Notes under the pieces: generated by a model | The model's input: only the letters and a program-made list of their open reading frames with translations | Told to the model about the DNA's origin: nothing | Databases searched by the model: none | Source: Pirellulaceae bacterium | GTDB lineage: Bacteria; Planctomycetota; Planctomycetia; Pirellulales; Pirellulaceae | Assembly: GCA_023382975.1 (NCBI GenBank) | Contig: JAHDXO010000024.1 | Span: 62,001 to 126,000, forward strand | Length of the DNA: 64,000 bases | Reading direction: 5' to 3' | Program-made: the position numbers and the translations under genes | Shown: positions 27,427 through 38,047 of the stretch, piece by piece | Numbering within the stretch: position 1 is the stretch's first letter | Layout: each line of letters starts with the position of its first letter

Positions 27427-28323
27427 ATGGCAGGTGTCGAGCAAGCGAAGTTCTCGCGACGTATGTACTTGTGCCTGTGGGCCGCCGCGATGATCGTCTG
27501 CGCCGGGGGCCTGACCTCGCGGCAGGCGGCGGCAGCCGAGGCGCCGGCGCCATCCACTCAGCTTTACCTGGTGGGGGTTGGTCCCGGCGATCCCGATCTC
27601 GTCACGGTCCGGGCGTTGAAGGTGATGAAACAGGCCGATGTGTTGTTCTGCTCCGACCGGATCAAGGAGAAATTCCCGGCGGAGTTCGAGGGCAAGGAGG
27701 TGTTCGGCGGGTATTGGCGTCTCTTTCCGTATTACGGCCAGGATTTGACGCAGTTGGAGGGCGACGAGCGCCGCGAGGCGGAGGCGTTGGCGACCAAGCG
27801 GAACGAGTTCATCGCCAAGGTCAGGGCGGCCGTCGAGCAGGGAAAGACCGTCGCCATCGTGGACAGCGGCGATCCGCTGATCTATGGTCCTTGGGCCTGG
27901 TGCTTGGAGGAATTCGAAGATCTGCGTCCCGTCGTGGTTCCCGGCGTCAGTTGTTTTAACGCCGCCAATGCGGCGCTGCGCCGCGGTGTCACCAGCGGCG
28001 AACGAACCAAGTCGGTCATCCTGACGGCTGCGGATTGGCCGGGAAAGACGGACACGATCGACAAGCTTGCCGCGCATGGCTCGACGATGGCGTTGTTCAC
28101 GATGCGGACGGACTTCGAAGAGTTCATCAAGAAACTGTCGATCAACTACCCTGCGGAGACTCCGGTGGCGATCGTGATCCAGGCGGGCTACGCAGACAAG
28201 GAGCAGGTGATCGAAGGGACCTTGGGCACGATCTTGAGTCAAGTCGGCCAGAAAGACCTGCCCTTTGAGTACATGATCTATGTAGGCGATTTCCTGACGT
28301 ATCGATACAAGAAGGCGAGGTGA
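27427..28323 (+). CDS. tetrapyrrole methylase-family protein with Tat-like signal peptide
   Basis: The start at 27427 is preceded by GGGAGAGAA. The N-terminal 40 residues form a signal peptide with a twin-arginine pattern (FSRRMYLCLWAAAMIVCAGG, then AAAEAP). The mature part is a tetrapyrrole (corrin/porphyrin) C-methylase fold: YLVGVGPGDPDLVTVRALKVM (AdoMet-binding GxGPGDP loop), DVLFCSD, IVDSGDPLIYGPW, VVPGVSCFNAANAAL, and AIVIQAGYADKEQVIEGTL. It is 298 residues, normal for precorrin methylases plus the leader. Cytoplasmic enzymes of this family lack such leaders, so the predicted export is odd. It is followed at 2 bp by a DUF4198 gene. Confidence 0.82.
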   Translation: MAGVEQAKFSRRMYLCLWAAAMIVCAGGLTSRQAAAAEAPAPSTQLYLVGVGPGDPDLVTVRALKVMKQADVLFCSDRIKEKFPAEFEGKEVFGGYWRLFPYYGQDLTQLEGDERREAEALATKRNEFIAKVRAAVEQGKTVAIVDSGDPLIYGPWAWCLEEFEDLRPVVVPGVSCFNAANAALRRGVTSGERTKSVILTAADWPGKTDTIDKLAAHGSTMALFTMRTDFEEFIKKLSINYPAETPVAIVIQAGYADKEQVIEGTLGTILSQVGQKDLPFEYMIYVGDFLTYRYKKAR

Positions 28324-28325
28324 AC

Positions 28326-29183
28326 ATGAGTACCCATGGAACACGGCACACGTTGGCGTGCGCAAGACTCGCGGTTTCCGCTTTTTTGGTTGGCGCGGCG
28401 ACCTTGTGTGCCGCCCTTTCGGCGAATGGGCACGAGGTGTGGATCGAGACCGCCACAAGCGCCAAGCGGGGAGAAGCTCACGAGATCCAAATCTGCTGGG
28501 GACACTCCGGTCAAAAAGAAACCGGCCCCGCGATGGCTGCGCAACAGGACAAGCTGACCGTCTGCGTCCTGGGACCGGGCGGCCGCGAACCCCTGACCCT
28601 GGCCAAGGGCAGCGACAGCTTCACCGCGAACTTCACTCCCGAAAGCCCCGGCGGCTACGTCGTCGGCGCCGATCTGCAGGTGGGGATCATCGACCGGGAG
28701 TTCCACGGCATGCCGCCCAAGACCCGGATCGTGATGTACGGCAAGGCCGTCGCGCATGCCGGCGGCCAGGGCGAAGCGACGGTTCCGCTGGGCTTCGATC
28801 TGGAGATCGTGCCCGCATCCCCGATTCGCGAACTGAAGCCGGGCGACTTGGTCACGGTCAAGGTTCTGCACAAGGGGCGCCCGATCGGTGGCAGGAACGT
28901 TCAGGTGTCCGCAAAGACATCGGGGCCGCTGCCTCCGCCGGCGGACTCCAGAGTCCAGACGAGCGAATGGTCCATCCAGGCGATGGCGGATCCCGTTTCG
29001 GGCGAAGTGACGGTTCCGCTGATCGTCGGCGGGCAGCATCTGTTCCACGTCAAGTATTTCGACGAGACTCCGGGAACCTACGATGGCGACAGGAACGACA
29101 GCTCGGACTTCAGCCACTTGCGCAAAGGCGACACCTACGAGCGAACGATGTACGTGTCCACCCTGACAGTGCAAGTCAACTGA
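28326..29183 (+). CDS. DUF4198 periplasmic protein (NikK-like)
   Basis: The ATG at 28326 follows GAGGTGA, which overlaps the stop of the preceding methylase gene. The 285-residue product has a signal peptide (AVSAFLVGAATLCAALSANG), and the mature N-terminus starts HEVWIETATS. An N-terminal His right after the leader is the DUF4198 hallmark, used for metal binding in nickel/cobalt uptake proteins of the NikK type. Two Ig-like beta domains follow (FTPESPGGYVVGAD; LKPGDLVTVKVLHKGRPIGGRNVQ; GQHLFHVKYFDETPGTYDGD). A role in metal or cobalt/corrinoid handling is inferred from the family and from the methylase partner. Confidence 0.85.
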   Translation: MSTHGTRHTLACARLAVSAFLVGAATLCAALSANGHEVWIETATSAKRGEAHEIQICWGHSGQKETGPAMAAQQDKLTVCVLGPGGREPLTLAKGSDSFTANFTPESPGGYVVGADLQVGIIDREFHGMPPKTRIVMYGKAVAHAGGQGEATVPLGFDLEIVPASPIRELKPGDLVTVKVLHKGRPIGGRNVQVSAKTSGPLPPPADSRVQTSEWSIQAMADPVSGEVTVPLIVGGQHLFHVKYFDETPGTYDGDRNDSSDFSHLRKGDTYERTMYVSTLTVQVN

Positions 29184-31665: not shown

Positions 31666-32205
31666 CTACGGCAACGGCGGCGGCAGAGGAGTGATCGAGA
31701 AGTTCTGGCGGAACGTTTGACGGAAGTCTTCGAAATCAAAGTTCAGGTTCTCGCTGAACAGCTTCCCGCCGATCAACCAATTGAAGGCACCGCGTTCCGC
31801 CCAATTGTTAGTATCGTTGTTGATCCCGATGTTGCCGCCGAGTCCGGCAAAGTCGCCTTCGACCTCCAGGCTGATGGTCTTGAACGTGCCGTCCGGCAGA
31901 ACGATCTCCTCGTTGATCGAGTAGCGAATCGTCGCCGTGAGGCCTTCCAGCATTTGGGCCGTGCCGCTGCCGACTCCCGTGAATTCGAACTCCTTAATCT
32001 GCGAGAAATCGATCCCCCCACCGATCAGCGCTTGCCCTCGGATCTGATGAGCGTCGTCATTGGCAACCACGCTCGATTGTGAAATGCCGGCCATCTGCAA
32101 AGCAGCGGGCAGCTCACTCGTAGCTGCTTTGCCCGGCTCGTCGGCGAACACTGGCGAGCTGGCAAGCATCGCCACCAAGGCCATTTGTACCCATGCATTC
32201 TTCAT
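31666..32205 (-). CDS. small secreted protein with ELPAAL/IRG module (paralogue A)
   Basis: The start at 32205 (MKNAWVQMALVAMLASSPVFADEPG) follows GGAAAGGTG. The 179-residue product has a Sec signal peptide, then the N-terminal module SELPAALQMAGISQSSVV followed by DAHQIRGQ. After it comes a beta-rich, acidic and Asn/Gly-containing domain (GGGIDFSQIKEFEFTGVGSG, INNDTNNWAERGAF) and a Pro-rich C-terminus. It is one of four tandem genes sharing this module. The variable domain is closest to that of paralogue D (both end in a FxxLxGxx...LIGG/FLLEG block about 35 residues from the end). It is possibly exported by the neighbouring Fap-like machinery. No enzyme motif is present. Confidence 0.75.
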   Translation of the reverse strand: MKNAWVQMALVAMLASSPVFADEPGKAATSELPAALQMAGISQSSVVANDDAHQIRGQALIGGGIDFSQIKEFEFTGVGSGTAQMLEGLTATIRYSINEEIVLPDGTFKTISLEVEGDFAGLGGNIGINNDTNNWAERGAFNWLIGGKLFSENLNFDFEDFRQTFRQNFSITPLPPPLP

Positions 32206-32595
32206 CGTTGACACCTTTCCCTGCAAAATGCGCGAAACAGAAAAGAGCCACGTGACTCTTTACGCTGAGAGTTCGGCAAACGTCGCTCACCAGTCGATGG
32301 GTTACAGGACTGTGTCCAGGTCTCCCGGCTTGGCCCAACTTGAACGTTTCTCACCGATACGAGGGAACCGTATCGCGACAAACCAACCTTTAGGGTGCAA
32401 ACGGTACTTCTTGGTGAAGCAATTTGCCACATCCAGACAGTTTACTAAGGCCACACGGGCTGTCAACGAATTCGACGAGAAAAATGCAGAAGTCGGGTAG
32501 TTTTTTCGTGGCAGGCGCAGGCCGCCACGCAGAATCGCCCGTAGGTGAATTTGCGAGAGTTCAGCCGAAGCCGCCGGGAATTTCCGGATCGAAAG
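32206..32595. other. intergenic interval between secreted-protein genes
   Basis: About 390 bases without a supported gene. The part adjoining 32205 must hold the promoter of paralogue A, and this is AT-richer (32390-32500) than its surroundings. No strong hairpin or operator was identified. Confidence 0.45.
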
Positions 32596-32922
32596 TTACG
32601 GAATGACGATACGGATGAACATGGGAGTGCCTGCGTTGGCGCCTCCGCTGATCGTCCAGAGATTCAGGCTGAAGGGTCCGTGGCCTTCGATCCGGGTGGC
32701 GAAGTACGGCAGGTTCAGGTTCAAGATCCAGTTTCCGCGGATCTGGGCCGCTTGCCCGGCCGTGACGATCTCGTCCGGCTGCAGCGTCATCCCCTGGAGG
32801 GCGGCCGGCAGGTCGTCTCGATCGATCAGCGGTTGGGACAGCGGCTGATCGGCAACCGCGATTGGCGGTGAGCAGCAAAGTCCCAGAAGGGCGAGCACGA
32901 TGGCTGTTCGGGCCGGATTCAT
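32596..32922 (-). CDS. small secreted protein with ELPAAL/IRG module (paralogue B)
   Basis: The ATG at 32922 follows TTGGAG. The 108-residue product has a Cys-containing signal peptide (AIVLALLGLCCSPPIAVA), the shared module DDLPAALQGMTLQPDEIV followed by QAAQIRGN, and a short beta-rich tail (ILNLNLPYFATRIEGHGPFSLNLWTISGG). It is the shortest of the four paralogues. It lies 29 bp after the stop of paralogue C, so the two are probably co-transcribed. Unknown function; candidate exported surface or fibre component by context. Confidence 0.72.
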   Translation of the reverse strand: MNPARTAIVLALLGLCCSPPIAVADQPLSQPLIDRDDLPAALQGMTLQPDEIVTAGQAAQIRGNWILNLNLPYFATRIEGHGPFSLNLWTISGGANAGTPMFIRIVIP

Positions 32923-32951
32923 GTTGCTTACTCCAAGTCGGCTGGAAACGG

Positions 32952-33422
32952 CTATCGAAGTTGGATGGAGAACAGGCCGGGCAGGGCGACGACGTCGGCG
33001 CTGGTCGGAGTGCCCTCGAAAGTCAAGATCCCGGTGAAGTTCGAGGATCGCGTAGCGATCACGCCTTGCACCGGCGAATAGTCTCCCAACACGGCCATGC
33101 CTTCGGTGGCAAAGAACAGCGTACCTTGCATGACGCCGATCGACACCTTTTGTCCCCCGCCGCTCAGCAGGAATGAAGTACTGGCGTTGGGCACATGGTT
33201 GCTGACGCCTGCCAAGGTGATGACGATCCCATGCGACGGAAAGAACTCGCCGCGCACCTGATGCGCCTCGGTCGCGGTCAGGATTTGCTGAGGCTGGACG
33301 CCGCCTTCCCGCAGAGCGGCCGGCAATTCGTCGGTGACCATCCGCTGATCCGCCGGCGCCGCCTTGGGCAAGACGCACAGCAGTCCGATCAGCACCAGCG
33401 GAACGGATCGAAGCAACATCAT
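32952..33422 (-). CDS. small secreted protein with ELPAAL/IRG module (paralogue C)
   Basis: The start at 33422 (MMLLRSVPLVLIGLLCVLPKAAPAD) follows AAGGGGTGGGAA. The 156-residue product has a signal peptide, then the module DELPAALREGGVQPQQIL followed by EAHQVRGE. The remainder is a beta-rich, glycine- and serine-containing domain (GIVITLAGVSNHVPNASTSF, GMAVLGDYSPVQGVI, FTGILTFEGTPTSADVV) ending in FSIQLR. No cysteines remain in the mature part and no catalytic motif is seen. It lies upstream of paralogue B by 29 bp and downstream of paralogue D by 88 bp. Confidence 0.75.
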   Translation of the reverse strand: MMLLRSVPLVLIGLLCVLPKAAPADQRMVTDELPAALREGGVQPQQILTATEAHQVRGEFFPSHGIVITLAGVSNHVPNASTSFLLSGGGQKVSIGVMQGTLFFATEGMAVLGDYSPVQGVIATRSSNFTGILTFEGTPTSADVVALPGLFSIQLR

Positions 33423-33510
33423 TTCCCACCCCTTCACGAAGAATCCTCATCGAACCGATGACCGTTACTCGTCGACGTTCGTCATCATCCGGCCATCACC
33501 TCCCGACTCG

Positions 33511-34050
33511 CTACTTGACGTAGAGTTGAGTGAAGATCTGCTCGTACACACCGACAAAGTCGATTTGTTCCTGCAGGGCTTTGCCTTCGAGCAAGAACTG
33601 GAAATTCCCATTCGGCGCCGCGCCGAGATAACCGGCCAGACCGCCGAAGTTGCCTTCAGCCACGGTTGTCGAGGTGCCTGTCTGCTGAGCGTGCTGGAAC
33701 TCGCCGACCACTCCCTCGAACAACAGGATCGTCCCCGTCGCCTCGCCGGTGATTTTGAACGTCTTGTGCTGGGCGAATTGTCCAGGTCCACAGGGAGGGG
33801 GACACGGTGTCGGGGGCGGACACGGCCGAGGCGGGCAAGGGATGACACAGACGGGGTAGCACGAGGACGGAACGTTGTACCCGCCTTGCCCGCGAATCGC
33901 ATGCGCGTCGGCCGCAGAAACCTGGAAGGACGCATCGATCCCCGCCGCTTGCAGAGCGGCGGGCAACTCCGCGGTCGCTGTTCCTTGTTCTGCTTGGACG
34001 TGGCCAACGGCCATCAAGGCGAAGATGAAACAAGTCGAAATGCGAAACAT
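33511..34050 (-). CDS. small secreted protein with ELPAAL/IRG module and Cys/Pro-rich insert (paralogue D)
   Basis: The ATG at 34050 follows GGAGG. The 179-residue product has a signal peptide (ISTCFIFALMAVGHVQA), the module AELPAALQAAGIDASFQV followed by DAHAIRGQ, and then a unique insert with six Cys among prolines (SSCYPVCVIPCPPRPCPPP then TPCPPPC, about residues 54-79). The C-terminal domain resembles paralogue A: KITGEATGTILLFEGVVGEF, EGNFGGLAGYLG, FQFLLEGKALQEQ. It is the first gene of the four-gene minus-strand run and is divergent from the barrel gene at 34374. Confidence 0.75.
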   Translation of the reverse strand: MFRISTCFIFALMAVGHVQAEQGTATAELPAALQAAGIDASFQVSAADAHAIRGQGGYNVPSSCYPVCVIPCPPRPCPPPTPCPPPCGPGQFAQHKTFKITGEATGTILLFEGVVGEFQHAQQTGTSTTVAEGNFGGLAGYLGAAPNGNFQFLLEGKALQEQIDFVGVYEQIFTQLYVK

Positions 34051-34373
34051 GACGGGCCTCCGAAAATTGTGCCTGAAGAAGCCGGCACCCGCGATCGGCA
34101 CCGACCAGCGTGTGCGGGTGGGATTCGCCGCAGGACAAAGGTGCTTTCGAAGCGCAAAGCGAGCGAATTCGACACGCACCAGCCGAATTACTTTTCCCCA
34201 GTTACCTAAAATAGCACAGCTTGGGCGGGTGTCAAACAATATCCTCAAATGCGGGATTTCCGGCTTTTGTCGAAGATAGGGCAAGTAGGGTTCCGATACG
34301 ATATATCAGGGTGCCTCAAGAAAACGGCTGGAAGTGGAGAGCGTGTCATTCCAGCAACGAAAGACGCGATCCG
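34051..34373. other. divergent promoter region of secreted-protein and barrel genes
   Basis: About 320 bases between divergent starts at 34050 (minus) and 34374 (plus). No gene is supported. It should hold promoters of both transcription units; an AT-richer segment at 34190-34260 is the best candidate. No clear operator seen. Confidence 0.5.
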
Positions 34374-35624
34374 ATGAATTCCGCCCGCCTTCGTCTCGCC
34401 GGAACTCTCGTCCTGATGATCGCGGGTGGAGTTTCCCTTTCGGAACCAACCTCGGCTCGGGCTCAGTGGCCGGACGGCCGATTGCCGATGATCGCGGACG
34501 AGTTGGCACAGAGCCCCGATCCTCGGACGGGGCGCCTGCCGGCGGTGCCCCTCGGCCCAGATGAGGAGTGGTCGGCCGGTTCGCTCGCGAATCCCCAGTA
34601 TCCGCCGTTGACGGGTCCGCTTTGGGAACCGGCTGTTGCACCGGCGACGGCTCCGCAGTATCACGCGCCGCTCCGGTTTGCGCAAGGGCCGGAGCAGGGG
34701 CAACCCAATCCACAGCCGCCGGCGGGTAGCGCGGGCGGCGGCGCGGCGGCGGCCGATGCAGACCGACCCCAGGGCGATGGTACGATCGGGCCTCGGCCAC
34801 CGGAAGAGATCAATCGCTTGGCCCTGCGCGGCACCAGCCTGCTGCTGAAACCAGGAACGTTTCAGTACGACTTCACGGCCCTGTACGTCCGCCAAGAGCA
34901 ACTGGCGGTCGGCCTCCTGCCGGGAGACATTCCCGTGCTGGAGCGGGTGCGAACCCGCACCTTGATCGCTCCGATGAGTCTGCGGTACGGGTGGAAAGAG
35001 AACATGGAACTGTTTGGCGTGGTGCCCTTCGGCGTCTCGATGTTCGAGTACGACAACCCGGCGATCAACGTGACGGATCAGACGGGCGTCTTGGGAGACA
35101 TCACCATCGGTTTTGCTCGCCAGTTGCAGAAGTGGAAGGACTGGCCGGATGCCACGTTGACGTTTAACGTCACGGCGCCGACGGGCGCCAACAATCAGCA
35201 GATCTTCGGCGACAACGAGGCGAGCCTGGGCAACGGCGTCTGGCGGATGGGGGCGATGATCAATCTGGTGGAATCGGTCGATCCCTTCGTGTTCTTCGGC
35301 GGAGTGGGATACGAATACACGTTCGCCAAGGAAGTTCAGGGATTGACGCTGCAATACGGCGACGCGGTCAACGCCTACTTCGGCGTCGGCATGGCCGTGA
35401 CCGACGACATTTCGCTGTCCGCCCAGTTGAACGCTTCGTTCCAGGACGTGACGAGCATCGAAGGTATTCAAATACCGAATTCGGATCGCGAGCCTGTGGC
35501 GCTGCGGCTGGCCCTGGTTCGTCGTCTGACCCTCAAGTCGCGTGTTCAGCCCTTCGTATCCTGGGCGTTGACGGACGACGCCCCGGACTACATGTTCGGC
35601 GTCCGTTTCACTCACGATCGGTAG
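34374..35624 (+). CDS. outer-membrane beta-barrel protein, FapF-like / phenol_MetA_deg-like
   Basis: The start at 34374 (MNSARLRLAGTLVLMIAGG) gives a normal signal peptide. The 416-residue product has a Pro/Ala/Gly-rich unstructured region (residues 30-150). A barrel with alternating aromatic strands follows: NRLALRGTSLLLKPGTFQYDFTALY, RTLIAPMSLRYGWKENMELFGVVPFG, DITIGFARQLQ, PDATLTFNVTAPTG, and a C-terminal strand ending GVRFTHDR. The LRGxxxLLxPGT start of the barrel is what I recall from transporter proteins of Fap systems. It sits 6 bp before a C39 peptidase gene and divergent from four small secreted genes. The Fap-like assignment is an inference. Confidence 0.65.
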   Translation: MNSARLRLAGTLVLMIAGGVSLSEPTSARAQWPDGRLPMIADELAQSPDPRTGRLPAVPLGPDEEWSAGSLANPQYPPLTGPLWEPAVAPATAPQYHAPLRFAQGPEQGQPNPQPPAGSAGGGAAAADADRPQGDGTIGPRPPEEINRLALRGTSLLLKPGTFQYDFTALYVRQEQLAVGLLPGDIPVLERVRTRTLIAPMSLRYGWKENMELFGVVPFGVSMFEYDNPAINVTDQTGVLGDITIGFARQLQKWKDWPDATLTFNVTAPTGANNQQIFGDNEASLGNGVWRMGAMINLVESVDPFVFFGGVGYEYTFAKEVQGLTLQYGDAVNAYFGVGMAVTDDISLSAQLNASFQDVTSIEGIQIPNSDREPVALRLALVRRLTLKSRVQPFVSWALTDDAPDYMFGVRFTHDR

Positions 35625-35630
35625 CGTGCG

Positions 35631-36380
35631 ATGGCCGCGGGACGACGCGCGAAATGGCGAAGTTGGGCATGGGCGTTGATCGGCGCGTTGCCGTTGGCCG
35701 GATGCACTTACTTCTCGGTCGCCGGGCCGGAAGCCCAGCGCAAGCGGGACTACGGAACGGGCGAGGTGTTCGATCTGGCCGCCGATGGTTTCCAGTTCCG
35801 CAAGGACACCCGCAGTTGGCGCTCGATGCAGCGCGAGAACATCGTGATGCAGAAATACGACTACTCGTGCGGATCGGCCGCGCTGGCCACACTCCAGCGA
35901 TACTACTTCGAAGACCCGGTGGACGAGCAGGTGGTGCTGAAGGTCATCTTCCTGCGACTCTCGCTGGCGCAGGATCCGAAGGCGGAGTTGAAAGACCGTT
36001 TCGAGAACGGTTTCTCGATGCTGGACTTGTTCAACGCGGCCAAGGACATGAAGTATCAAGCGGCGGTGGTCAAGATTCCTTTCGACAAGTTGGCCGAACT
36101 GCAGTCGCCGAGCATCGTGCGGATCGAAAAGCACCAGTTCAAGCACTTCGTCGTGTTCCGCGGAGTCCACGACCAAACGGTTTACCTAGCGGACCCGATG
36201 CGAGGCAACGTGCGTCTCTCGGCGGACGAGTTCTTGAAGCAGTGGAGCGGCGAGGTGCTGGTGCTGGGCAAAGCCGGGTTCGGCCTGCCCAAAGAGCATC
36301 CGCTGGCCGTCCGCGTCGACGGCCCAGCCCGTCCCGAACTAGAATTCGCCCGCCAGGCACTCTTCCCCATTCACCGCTGA
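35631..36380 (+). CDS. C39-family cysteine peptidase lipoprotein, FapD-like
   Basis: A 249-residue product with lipoprotein signal peptide (lipobox LAGC, Cys 25). The C39 catalytic set is visible: oxyanion Gln 74 and nucleophile Cys 80 in QKYDYSCGSAALATL, His 172 in KHFVVFRGV and Asp 188 in VYLADP. The family trims leader peptides after Gly-Gly-type sites in bacteriocin exporters; in Fap systems a C39 peptidase (FapD) is required for fibre assembly. Here it is a stand-alone lipoprotein without ABC domains. It is 6 bp after the outer-membrane barrel gene and near the four secreted proteins carrying an IRG-Q motif, its likely substrates (inference). Confidence 0.88.
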   Translation: MAAGRRAKWRSWAWALIGALPLAGCTYFSVAGPEAQRKRDYGTGEVFDLAADGFQFRKDTRSWRSMQRENIVMQKYDYSCGSAALATLQRYYFEDPVDEQVVLKVIFLRLSLAQDPKAELKDRFENGFSMLDLFNAAKDMKYQAAVVKIPFDKLAELQSPSIVRIEKHQFKHFVVFRGVHDQTVYLADPMRGNVRLSADEFLKQWSGEVLVLGKAGFGLPKEHPLAVRVDGPARPELEFARQALFPIHR

Positions 36381-36389
36381 GAAGCTGCT

Positions 36390-37751
36390 TTACCAGCGAA
36401 CGGTCAGGCCGATGAATCCGCCGTGGGCGATCAGCGTGTTGTATTGCACACTGGCCGTGTGGGCGATCAAGTCGGTGGCAACCAACTGGTCCGGGGCCAG
36501 CGCGACGGCGCCGATGCCGAGCAATTGATAGCCCGCCCGGATGTCGACACAGTGGGTGATCCGGTAACCGGCGGCGATGGCGAATTCGCCCGAGTACGCC
36601 AGCGTGGTGCGGCTGGCCCCGGCCGGCGGACCGATGACCGAGGACATGGTGTGCTGGCTGGACTCGTTGGCGTAGATGCCGAACTTCAGCAGGGTTTCCA
36701 CGTAGAGCGGCCCGCCGCAGTCATACAGCAGATAGCTGTTGCCGAAATGGACGCCGTACAGATTGTTGGCGGTCGAGATCTTGAAGAGGCTGTAGATCGG
36801 CGCGTTCAACTCGGAGAGCCGAAACGTCTCGTCCAACCGAATGTAGCGGAAACCTCCGAAGAACGAACAGCGACTGCTGAAACAGTCCATGTGGTTCATC
36901 GGACGGTAATTGATCTCGAAGCTATGCAGACTCGAATCGTACTCGGCCAAGAACAGCCCCGGGCACGCTTGAAGCGAAAAGCCAAGACCTTGGAAATACA
37001 GATTGCCCGAAGCGGTTTGGCTCGCATCCCATTCCGGCAACCCGAGATAGCCGAACTCCCAGCCGCCATAGCAACAGTCGGAGCGGGCGATGCTGACTCG
37101 CACGCCCAATTCGTAGCCAAAGCTGAGATCCCCGACGTCCATCTGTGGGTTGTCGCAGCCGCATTCCTTGACGAACAGATGGTCGTTCGCGGGCTGTCGG
37201 CGCAGCCCGATCAGTTCCGCGGTTACCTGCCAAGCCGGCAGACATGTCGCGCAGCCCATCTCGCAGTATTCGCCTTTGACCGGCGGCAACGGTTCGAATG
37301 CTTTCGGATCCTCGCCCGGACCTGGGGCCTGATGCGCCGCCCAGGTCAACGGCTGGGATGGCGGCTGAGTCGGCGCGTAGGTGCCGTCCCGGAAGGAAGG
37401 CGAATCGCTGGCCATGCGGTAGTAGTCACCCGATGCATCGGCCAATGGCAGATACGGGGCTGGATTCTGGTACAGCGGCTGGTTCGGGTACGTCTGCGGA
37501 TATTGGTACGTCGGCTGGTTCGGGTATGCCGGCGGATTCTGGTACGAGGGGGAAGAGTGATACGTCGGCTGATTGTAGGGATTGTAGTAGGGTTCGGTCG
37601 AGGGATAGGTCGGACCGGTCGTTTGATGGTACGGCGCGGCTGCGTTCGGATTTTGCGGACGCTGGACCCACGCTTGCGCGCCGGCCGATGCCGGAACCGA
37701 ACACAACCCTAGCGCCAACAAGAACAAACGATACGACCGGAATAGGCACAT
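36390..37751 (-). CDS. BBP7-like outer-membrane beta-barrel protein
   Basis: The start at 37751 follows GGAG. The 453-residue product has a signal peptide (LFLLALGLCSVPASAGA), then a low-complexity Tyr/Pro/Asn/Gln-rich region (residues 33-105, repeats of YQNP/YPNQP). The C-terminal barrel has features of the planctomycete BBP7 family: WQVTAELIGLRRQPANDHLF, FGYELGVRVSIARSDCCYGGWEFGYLGLPEWDAS, NYRPMNHMDCF, FFGGFRYIRLDETF, and a closing strand GGFIGLTVRW. It is convergent with the C39 peptidase gene (about 10 bp between stops), so it is probably a separate unit. Role unknown; surface exposure likely. Confidence 0.83.
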   Translation of the reverse strand: MCLFRSYRLFLLALGLCSVPASAGAQAWVQRPQNPNAAAPYHQTTGPTYPSTEPYYNPYNQPTYHSSPSYQNPPAYPNQPTYQYPQTYPNQPLYQNPAPYLPLADASGDYYRMASDSPSFRDGTYAPTQPPSQPLTWAAHQAPGPGEDPKAFEPLPPVKGEYCEMGCATCLPAWQVTAELIGLRRQPANDHLFVKECGCDNPQMDVGDLSFGYELGVRVSIARSDCCYGGWEFGYLGLPEWDASQTASGNLYFQGLGFSLQACPGLFLAEYDSSLHSFEINYRPMNHMDCFSSRCSFFGGFRYIRLDETFRLSELNAPIYSLFKISTANNLYGVHFGNSYLLYDCGGPLYVETLLKFGIYANESSQHTMSSVIGPPAGASRTTLAYSGEFAIAAGYRITHCVDIRAGYQLLGIGAVALAPDQLVATDLIAHTASVQYNTLIAHGGFIGLTVRW

Positions 37752-38047
37752 CGGTCGAACTCCTCCATGCATAACATCCGACAGGTCAAGGCGGCAGCGA
37801 ACACTCCGTGTCTGGTTTGGTGTCGTCCGCCGGGTGGTCCTTCCATCAACATCATTGAGGCATGTGGAGGAATCCGAACAGGTGTCATATCTGGCGGAAG
37901 GCTGAAACGGCGCGGGGACATGCGCGGACAGATTCGCATGTCGCTTTCGGCCCGCTGAGTTTCTGTGGCGATGGCCGGTGTACGCTGCGCCGCCAATCCT
38001 CCGAGGCTCGCGTGAACGGCAATTCTTGGGCGTCTTCCCGGATCAAG
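37752..38047. other. interval with a duplicated CHAT-gene fragment
   Basis: About 300 bases. The main content is a 76-bp fragment (37978-38053) nearly matching the 3' end of the CHAT gene at 38693-38768; on the minus strand it reads FDLIREDAQELPFTRASEDWRRSV. The remainder is unremarkable and should hold the promoter of the BBP7-like gene. Confidence 0.6.

Follow-up and report, generated by a model that had tools for sequence, protein, structure and literature searches.

A planctomycete gene cluster combining leader-bearing small secreted proteins with a FapF-like barrel and a FapD-like peptidase

Results

Six genes at a planctomycete locus include relatives of two Fap export genes

The window analysed here is a 64,000-nt stretch of a Pirellulaceae genome (contig JAHDXO010000024.1, positions 62,001–126,000 of the forward strand), and at window positions 31666–36380 it contains a cluster of six genes that we suggest encodes an export system related to the Fap system of Pseudomonas. 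The plus strand encodes a FapF-like outer-membrane barrel of 416 amino acids (P0004, 34374–35624) followed by a FapD-like stand-alone C39 cysteine peptidase of 249 amino acids, a lipoprotein (P0005, 35631–36380). The minus strand encodes four small secreted proteins, the putative cargo, each carrying a variant of one leader-like module: protein 1 (P0001, 179 amino acids, 31666–32205; ELPAAL..AHQIRGQ encoded at 32026–32121), protein 2 (P0006, 108 amino acids, 32596–32922; DLPAAL..AAQIRGN at 32725–32820), protein 3 (P0002, 155 amino acids, 32952–33419; ELPAAL..AHQVRGE at 33240–33335) and protein 4 (P0003, 179 amino acids, 33511–34050; ELPAAL..AHAIRGQ at 33880–33975). All six reading frames are open at the predicted coordinates and have sound codon statistics, which bears out the genes, coordinates and strands given in an initial annotation of this DNA. 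That annotation read the cluster as a Fap-like fibre exporter; the kinship of the barrel and the C39 peptidase, the conservation of the pair and the linkage of the cargo to it are upheld below, and a fibre or amyloid product remains a matter of inference.

The barrel and the peptidase are relatives of FapF and FapD

Comparison of the barrel with NCBIfam models gave matches to FapF (E=1.3e-15) and FilC (E=1.6e-9), and the barrel also matches the sequence of the FapF crystal structure PDB 5o65 (E=3.6e-9). The peptidase matches FapD (E=3.6e-28) better than it matches FilB (E=8e-24) or ABC (ATP-binding cassette)-transporter peptidases, and it matches Pfam C39 at E=3e-22. These scores reach 57 of the 700 bits and 98 of the 330 bits of the FapF and FapD equivalog cut-offs, respectively, so that they establish kinship rather than identity. 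A comparison of the barrel with PF13557, which the initial annotation had suggested, gave no match at E<=1. In an AlphaFold model that is confident for residues 155–416, a low-complexity N-terminal linker precedes a predicted plug helix (residues 144–150) and a barrel (residues 163–416). The model best fits the FapF crystals 5o67/5o65 (Z 28.4, 2.0 Å over 253 residues, 23% identity), with the structural match beginning at the plug region (model residue 143, FapF residue 88), and Foldseek likewise returned FapF as the best structural match.

The second-best structural fit raises another explanation, namely that the barrel is a COG4313-type channel for small-molecule uptake, in which case the small proteins would bind ligands in the periplasm or at the cell surface and their association with the barrel would be regulatory. 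COG4313 channels have the same fold (4rl8, Z 24.9) and share the PTG motif. However, the modelled alignment with 4rl8 runs from residue 151 on, behind the plug, and FapF is the only one of the two to which the plug-helix region aligns; moreover, a profile built from 17 planctomycete barrels has FapF as its sole PDB match (E 1e-32), and the FapF model matches 15 of these 17. A C39 gene always adjoins the barrel in the planctomycete loci examined, and according to one review (PMC6173800) C39 peptidases have not been reported with COG4313 channels. We therefore regard uptake through a COG4313-type channel as improbable. Taken together, family matches and fold comparison substantiate the resemblance seen in the initial annotation and indicate that P0004 is a true relative of FapF. 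We note that in FapF-like barrels of several Proteobacteria (L062 1944–3332, L065 4435–5781 and L071 2750–4024) a small N-terminal domain with the motif VFLKNGDxxSGxxxxL replaces the coiled coil.

Cys80, His172 and Asp188 of the peptidase, which had been proposed as its catalytic residues, are invariant in 18 homologues, as is Gln74. The lipobox, read from the sequence, is LAGC, its last residue being Cys25, and the protein stands alone rather than being fused to an ABC transporter. In a tree of C39 sequences, every planctomycete sequence falls on one side of a single branch (support 88 by the Shimodaira–Hasegawa-like approximate likelihood ratio test, SH-aLRT), the window sequence and that of a genome of the same family (G026) are sister to the other 33 planctomycete sequences (99), and the FapD encoded in a Pseudomonas alcaligenes fap operon lies far from the planctomycete clade. 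By its family matches P0005 is a true relative of FapD, in agreement with the family assignment originally made.

The barrel and the peptidase form a conserved unit

Among 60 relatives, the barrel is present in five genomes besides its own and is followed by the C39 gene in every case; three members of the same genus lack the barrel, and the system is thus patchy. A search for related loci with the barrel alone returned none, and an alignment of the C39 peptidase was used in its place. Stand-alone C39 genes stand out as a distinct group (E<=2e-19) in a survey of 298 Planctomycetia genomes, the next matches being ABC transporters in long frames, and a barrel adjoins the C39 gene in all 20 further planctomycete loci extracted. 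Outside the planctomycetes, a FapF-like barrel lies in the 16-kb stretch analysed in 33 of 42 de-duplicated C39 loci. Barrel and C39 peptidase are therefore a conserved neighbouring unit, and the two occur together with small secreted proteins in related genomes. Both this co-occurrence and the FapF match of the barrel are the opposite of what, according to the initial annotation, would have refuted its reading. Rouse et al. 2018 (PMC6173800) had already described neighbouring fapD and fapF homologues in five additional phyla outside Proteobacteria, so that such pairs are known and it is the cargo and its leader that are new; neither is named in the accessible text of that review.

Two variations were seen among these loci. 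At L011 5273–6833, two tandem C39 copies lie next to a single barrel, and near the pair in L010 (2097–3176), L043 (11338–12420) and L044 (11276–12430) there is a gene for an actin/Hsp70-type ATPase-like protein (GIDFGTM..) together with a further secreted gene.

A common module follows the signal peptide in all four cargo candidates

Each of the four minus-strand products begins with a Sec-type signal peptide, seen in the sequence, directly followed by a module with the consensus ELPAAL..GI....VSA.DAH.IRGQ; the remainder differs from protein to protein. The paralogy proposed for these proteins thus holds in their N-terminal part, where LPAAL, A52, R56 and G57 are invariant, and the ELPAAL module is, judged from the sequences, a leader behind the signal peptide and not a substrate fold, the mature parts being variable. 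Protein 4 contains a Cys/Pro-rich insert (CYPVCVIPCPPRPCPPPTPCPPPCGPG) right after the leader, in the region of window positions 33640–33800, that its paralogues lack.

The genome from which the window derives holds four ELPAAL copies, all within this cluster. G026 carries the same four-protein set beside its own barrel–C39 pair (relatives of protein 1 at L007:2949 and L007:4737, counterparts of protein 2 at L007:4236–4565 and of protein 3 at L007:3663–4208), as well as four ELPAAL proteins elsewhere. Among the 60 relatives, the best match to the ELPAAL model outside these two genomes is a secreted protein of genome G004 (E=6.9e-5; HLLATLGLSGLDVVSTTEAANVRGHG), whose gene is one of three consecutive ones adjoining a C39 gene. 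A search of 294 genomes of the phylum gave no further ELPAAL family and one partial, weak match.

The cluster might also be a genuine Fap amyloid system, so diverged that it can no longer be recognised, in which case the four proteins would be FapB, FapC and FapE orthologues that form amyloid fibres. The kinship of the barrel and the peptidase favours this possibility, as do a GNIGIN stretch in protein 1 that is reminiscent of Fap repeats and a beta-rich, low-confidence structure model of the cargo (predicted local distance difference test score, pLDDT, 44). Against it, the FapB, FapC and FapE models gave no match to the four proteins at E<=1 and no repeats were seen, in line with the initial annotation's statement that these proteins are not FapB/FapC-like, and the peptidase belongs to the planctomycete clade described above, apart from the P. 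alcaligenes fap-operon FapD. We find divergence from a true Fap system very improbable. The cargo has no FapB or FapC match and the locus has no FapA, FapB, FapC or FapE homologue as judged by Fap family models, and we therefore rejected membership of the canonical Fap system. DUF6160 and FilA models likewise gave no match to the four small proteins.

Leaders co-occur with stand-alone C39 genes in planctomycetes

In other planctomycetes, small secreted proteins encoded beside the pair carry the sequence LxxMGLxxMxxMSDxEGxxVRGKG immediately after the signal peptide. A search with a model of this leader gave matches in 21 of the 298 genomes. Apart from the window's own genome, which holds a C39 gene and the ELPAAL form of the leader, a stand-alone C39 gene is present in 21 genomes, precisely those that are matched; none of the 276 genomes without a stand-alone C39 gene is matched (Fisher test, 2.5e-31 by genome and 5e-19 by genus, genera not being fully independent). 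This co-occurrence and the recurrence of the four-gene set in G026 support the linkage of the small proteins to the pair.

A hidden Markov model (HMM) of the planctomycete leader, built without the sequences of the window and G026, matched the ELPAAL proteins with weak single E-values (0.011–1.9), and we therefore used rank tests for this comparison. A position matrix trained solely on planctomycetes other than the window ranked the four small proteins as the top four genes of the 64 kb (17.4, 15.4, 9.9 and 9.4 bits; next gene, 6.9).

Similar leaders occur in other phyla, in FapE and in Fil proteins

Beside non-planctomycete C39 genes, 21 of 115 secreted proteins encoded within 3.5 kb scored above 9 bits with the same matrix, compared with 8 of 324 other genes (Fisher test, 9e-8) and 2.2% of shuffled sequences. 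The matches in Proteobacteria and Nitrospirota read as double-glycine-like leaders (MTDEELHHARGTA, LTDPEMAEIRGGF, LNDVEAAVIRGQG, ISESQMDTVTGQS and MEDEEMAEVHGRD) with the pattern DxELxxMRGG, and a Nitrospirales leader (ALTDDQLDTVAGGY) was spotted by eye. C39 double-glycine leaders end in GG, GA or GS; the window leader is similar in pattern but has RG-Q/E/N instead of GG, and the cross-phylum matrix test was positive. A looser regular expression matched 46 of 136 near and 8 of 65 far proteins and 13% of shuffled sequences, a moderate enrichment that is post hoc. A rank test over all secreted neighbours (area under the curve 0.55) was dropped for the tail test; it told us little, since cargo is a minority among these neighbours and real leaders were present in the "far" group. 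One leader-bearing neighbour of the pair (L078 6121–6627) matches the UmoA flagellar-regulator family (NF041433, 1e-14), and UmoA-like proteins may have a secreted role.

FapE-family or FapE-like proteins encoded beside C39 genes at 13 loci (9–12 of them independent) carry xDxELxxMRG(G/R/K)(Y/F). In a P. alcaligenes fap operon, in which NCBIfam recognises FapA and FapE, the FapE leader is EHELAEMRGRY, and two further FapE proteins were found. FilA/DUF6160 proteins bear LDDxELxxVxGQ.

Discussion

From the genes present and their homologies, the conserved neighbourhood, the conserved leader and its co-occurrence with C39, all of them observed, we propose, with a probability of roughly 0.6, that this locus encodes a Fap-related, leader-directed export pathway in which a periplasmic C39 peptidase would remove the leader and the cargo would leave through the FapF-like barrel. 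The four small proteins would cross the inner membrane by Sec. The ELPAAL..xDAHxIRG-Q/E/N module, a putative divergent double-glycine-type leader, would then be bound in the periplasm by the lipid-anchored peptidase and cut, probably just behind RG-X, and the mature chains, still unfolded, would reach the cell surface by way of the plugged barrel and may form a coat or fibre there. The shared tag is, on this sequence evidence, a good candidate for what the C39 peptidase cuts.

A different division of labour, in which the peptidase acts on the barrel or on a plug or chaperone and the small-protein module is an uncut sorting or chaperone-binding tag, also has points in its favour. Some C39 domains are chaperones that do not cleave. 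The predicted linker of the window barrel is long, with residues 1–138 disordered in the model apart from one short helix, which is a weak test in a low-confidence region, and cleavage of the FapF linker by FapD has been proposed as an option (PMC5557850). However, the C39 catalytic triad is invariant, and the motif resembles a C39 leader (D-x-E-L/G-x-x-V/I/M-R-G-G/Q/K) and is found exactly in C39 genomes. We consider an uncut tag unlikely.

In Pseudomonas, secretion of Fap amyloid depends on FapD, which has a Sec signal and whose active-site Cys is required for secretion of FapC (PMC5557850). PMC5557850 and PMC6173800 describe the FapD target as unknown and report neither an export signal in FapC nor canonical C39 sites in Fap proteins. 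Papers from 2020 and 2024 still call the role of FapD unclear or putative. A literature search, to which most subscription journals were external, turned up no description of a leader in systems of this kind. In one study FapE was the sole Fap protein for which mass spectrometry gave no N-terminal peptides (PMC5557850). It is about an even chance that one pathway, comprising Sec, leader removal by C39 and a FapF-type barrel, spans the Fap, Fil and planctomycete loci, with FapE as a cut substrate and unrelated mature cargo following the same leader in the planctomycetes.

Several observations weigh against leader-directed export. The FapE peptides are missing to about residue 70, beyond the motif at residues 34–54. 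Our search rules identified no leader protein in 13 of the 42 non-planctomycete loci. The planctomycete-trained matrix gives no score to the Pseudomonas FapE motif, so that over the greatest distance the connection depends on inspection by eye and on conservation at the level of the family, and FapB and FapC have no such motif, so that the leader is not required by all cargo of such barrels.

The locus shares with fapABCDEF a FapF-fold, trimer-type barrel with a plug region, an adjoining periplasmic stand-alone C39 peptidase, Sec-exported cargo and, in FapE, a similar leader behind the signal peptide; it differs in the four leader-bearing small proteins that take the place of the Fap subunits and in a C39 lipoprotein of a separate clade. 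The Fil "putative pilus system" (FilA, FilB, FilC; DUF6160) is likewise similar in its FilB and FilC matches and in a FilA/DUF6160 leader of the same kind (LDDxELSxVTGQ), but the window proteins match Fil more weakly than Fap and FilA-type mature domains were not found in the small proteins. With PCAT/AMS double-glycine leaders the locus has in common the C39 fold, the catalytic residues and an acidic/hydrophobic leader ending near glycine, whereas the proposed cleavage would be periplasmic and after Sec, there is no ABC transporter domain, and planctomycetes have RG-Q/E/N/K rather than GG. A leader conserved beside the FapD–FapF pair in at least three phyla, and present in FapE, provides a concrete, testable sequence for the FapD target and would allow the proteins that such exporters carry to be sought in any genome. 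In Planctomycetota a Fap-type exporter would serve cargo unrelated to FapB and FapC.

Neighbouring genes and other features of the window

The neighbours of the cluster in the window are hisG and a gene for a BBP7-type putative beta-barrel porin (36390–37772, minus strand). A related BBP7-type gene is a frequent third neighbour of the pair, found no more than 8 kb away at 34 of 39 planctomycete loci, as assessed with a model built from 10 of the 39. Elsewhere in the window, the product of a plus-strand gene at 27427–28323 matches PF00590, the tetrapyrrole (corrin/porphyrin) methylase domain, at 8e-45 and has an apparent Sec-type signal peptide at its start, an odd arrangement in that it would place an S-adenosylmethionine-dependent enzyme outside the cytoplasm; a gene for a DUF4198 protein (28320–29183) follows it.

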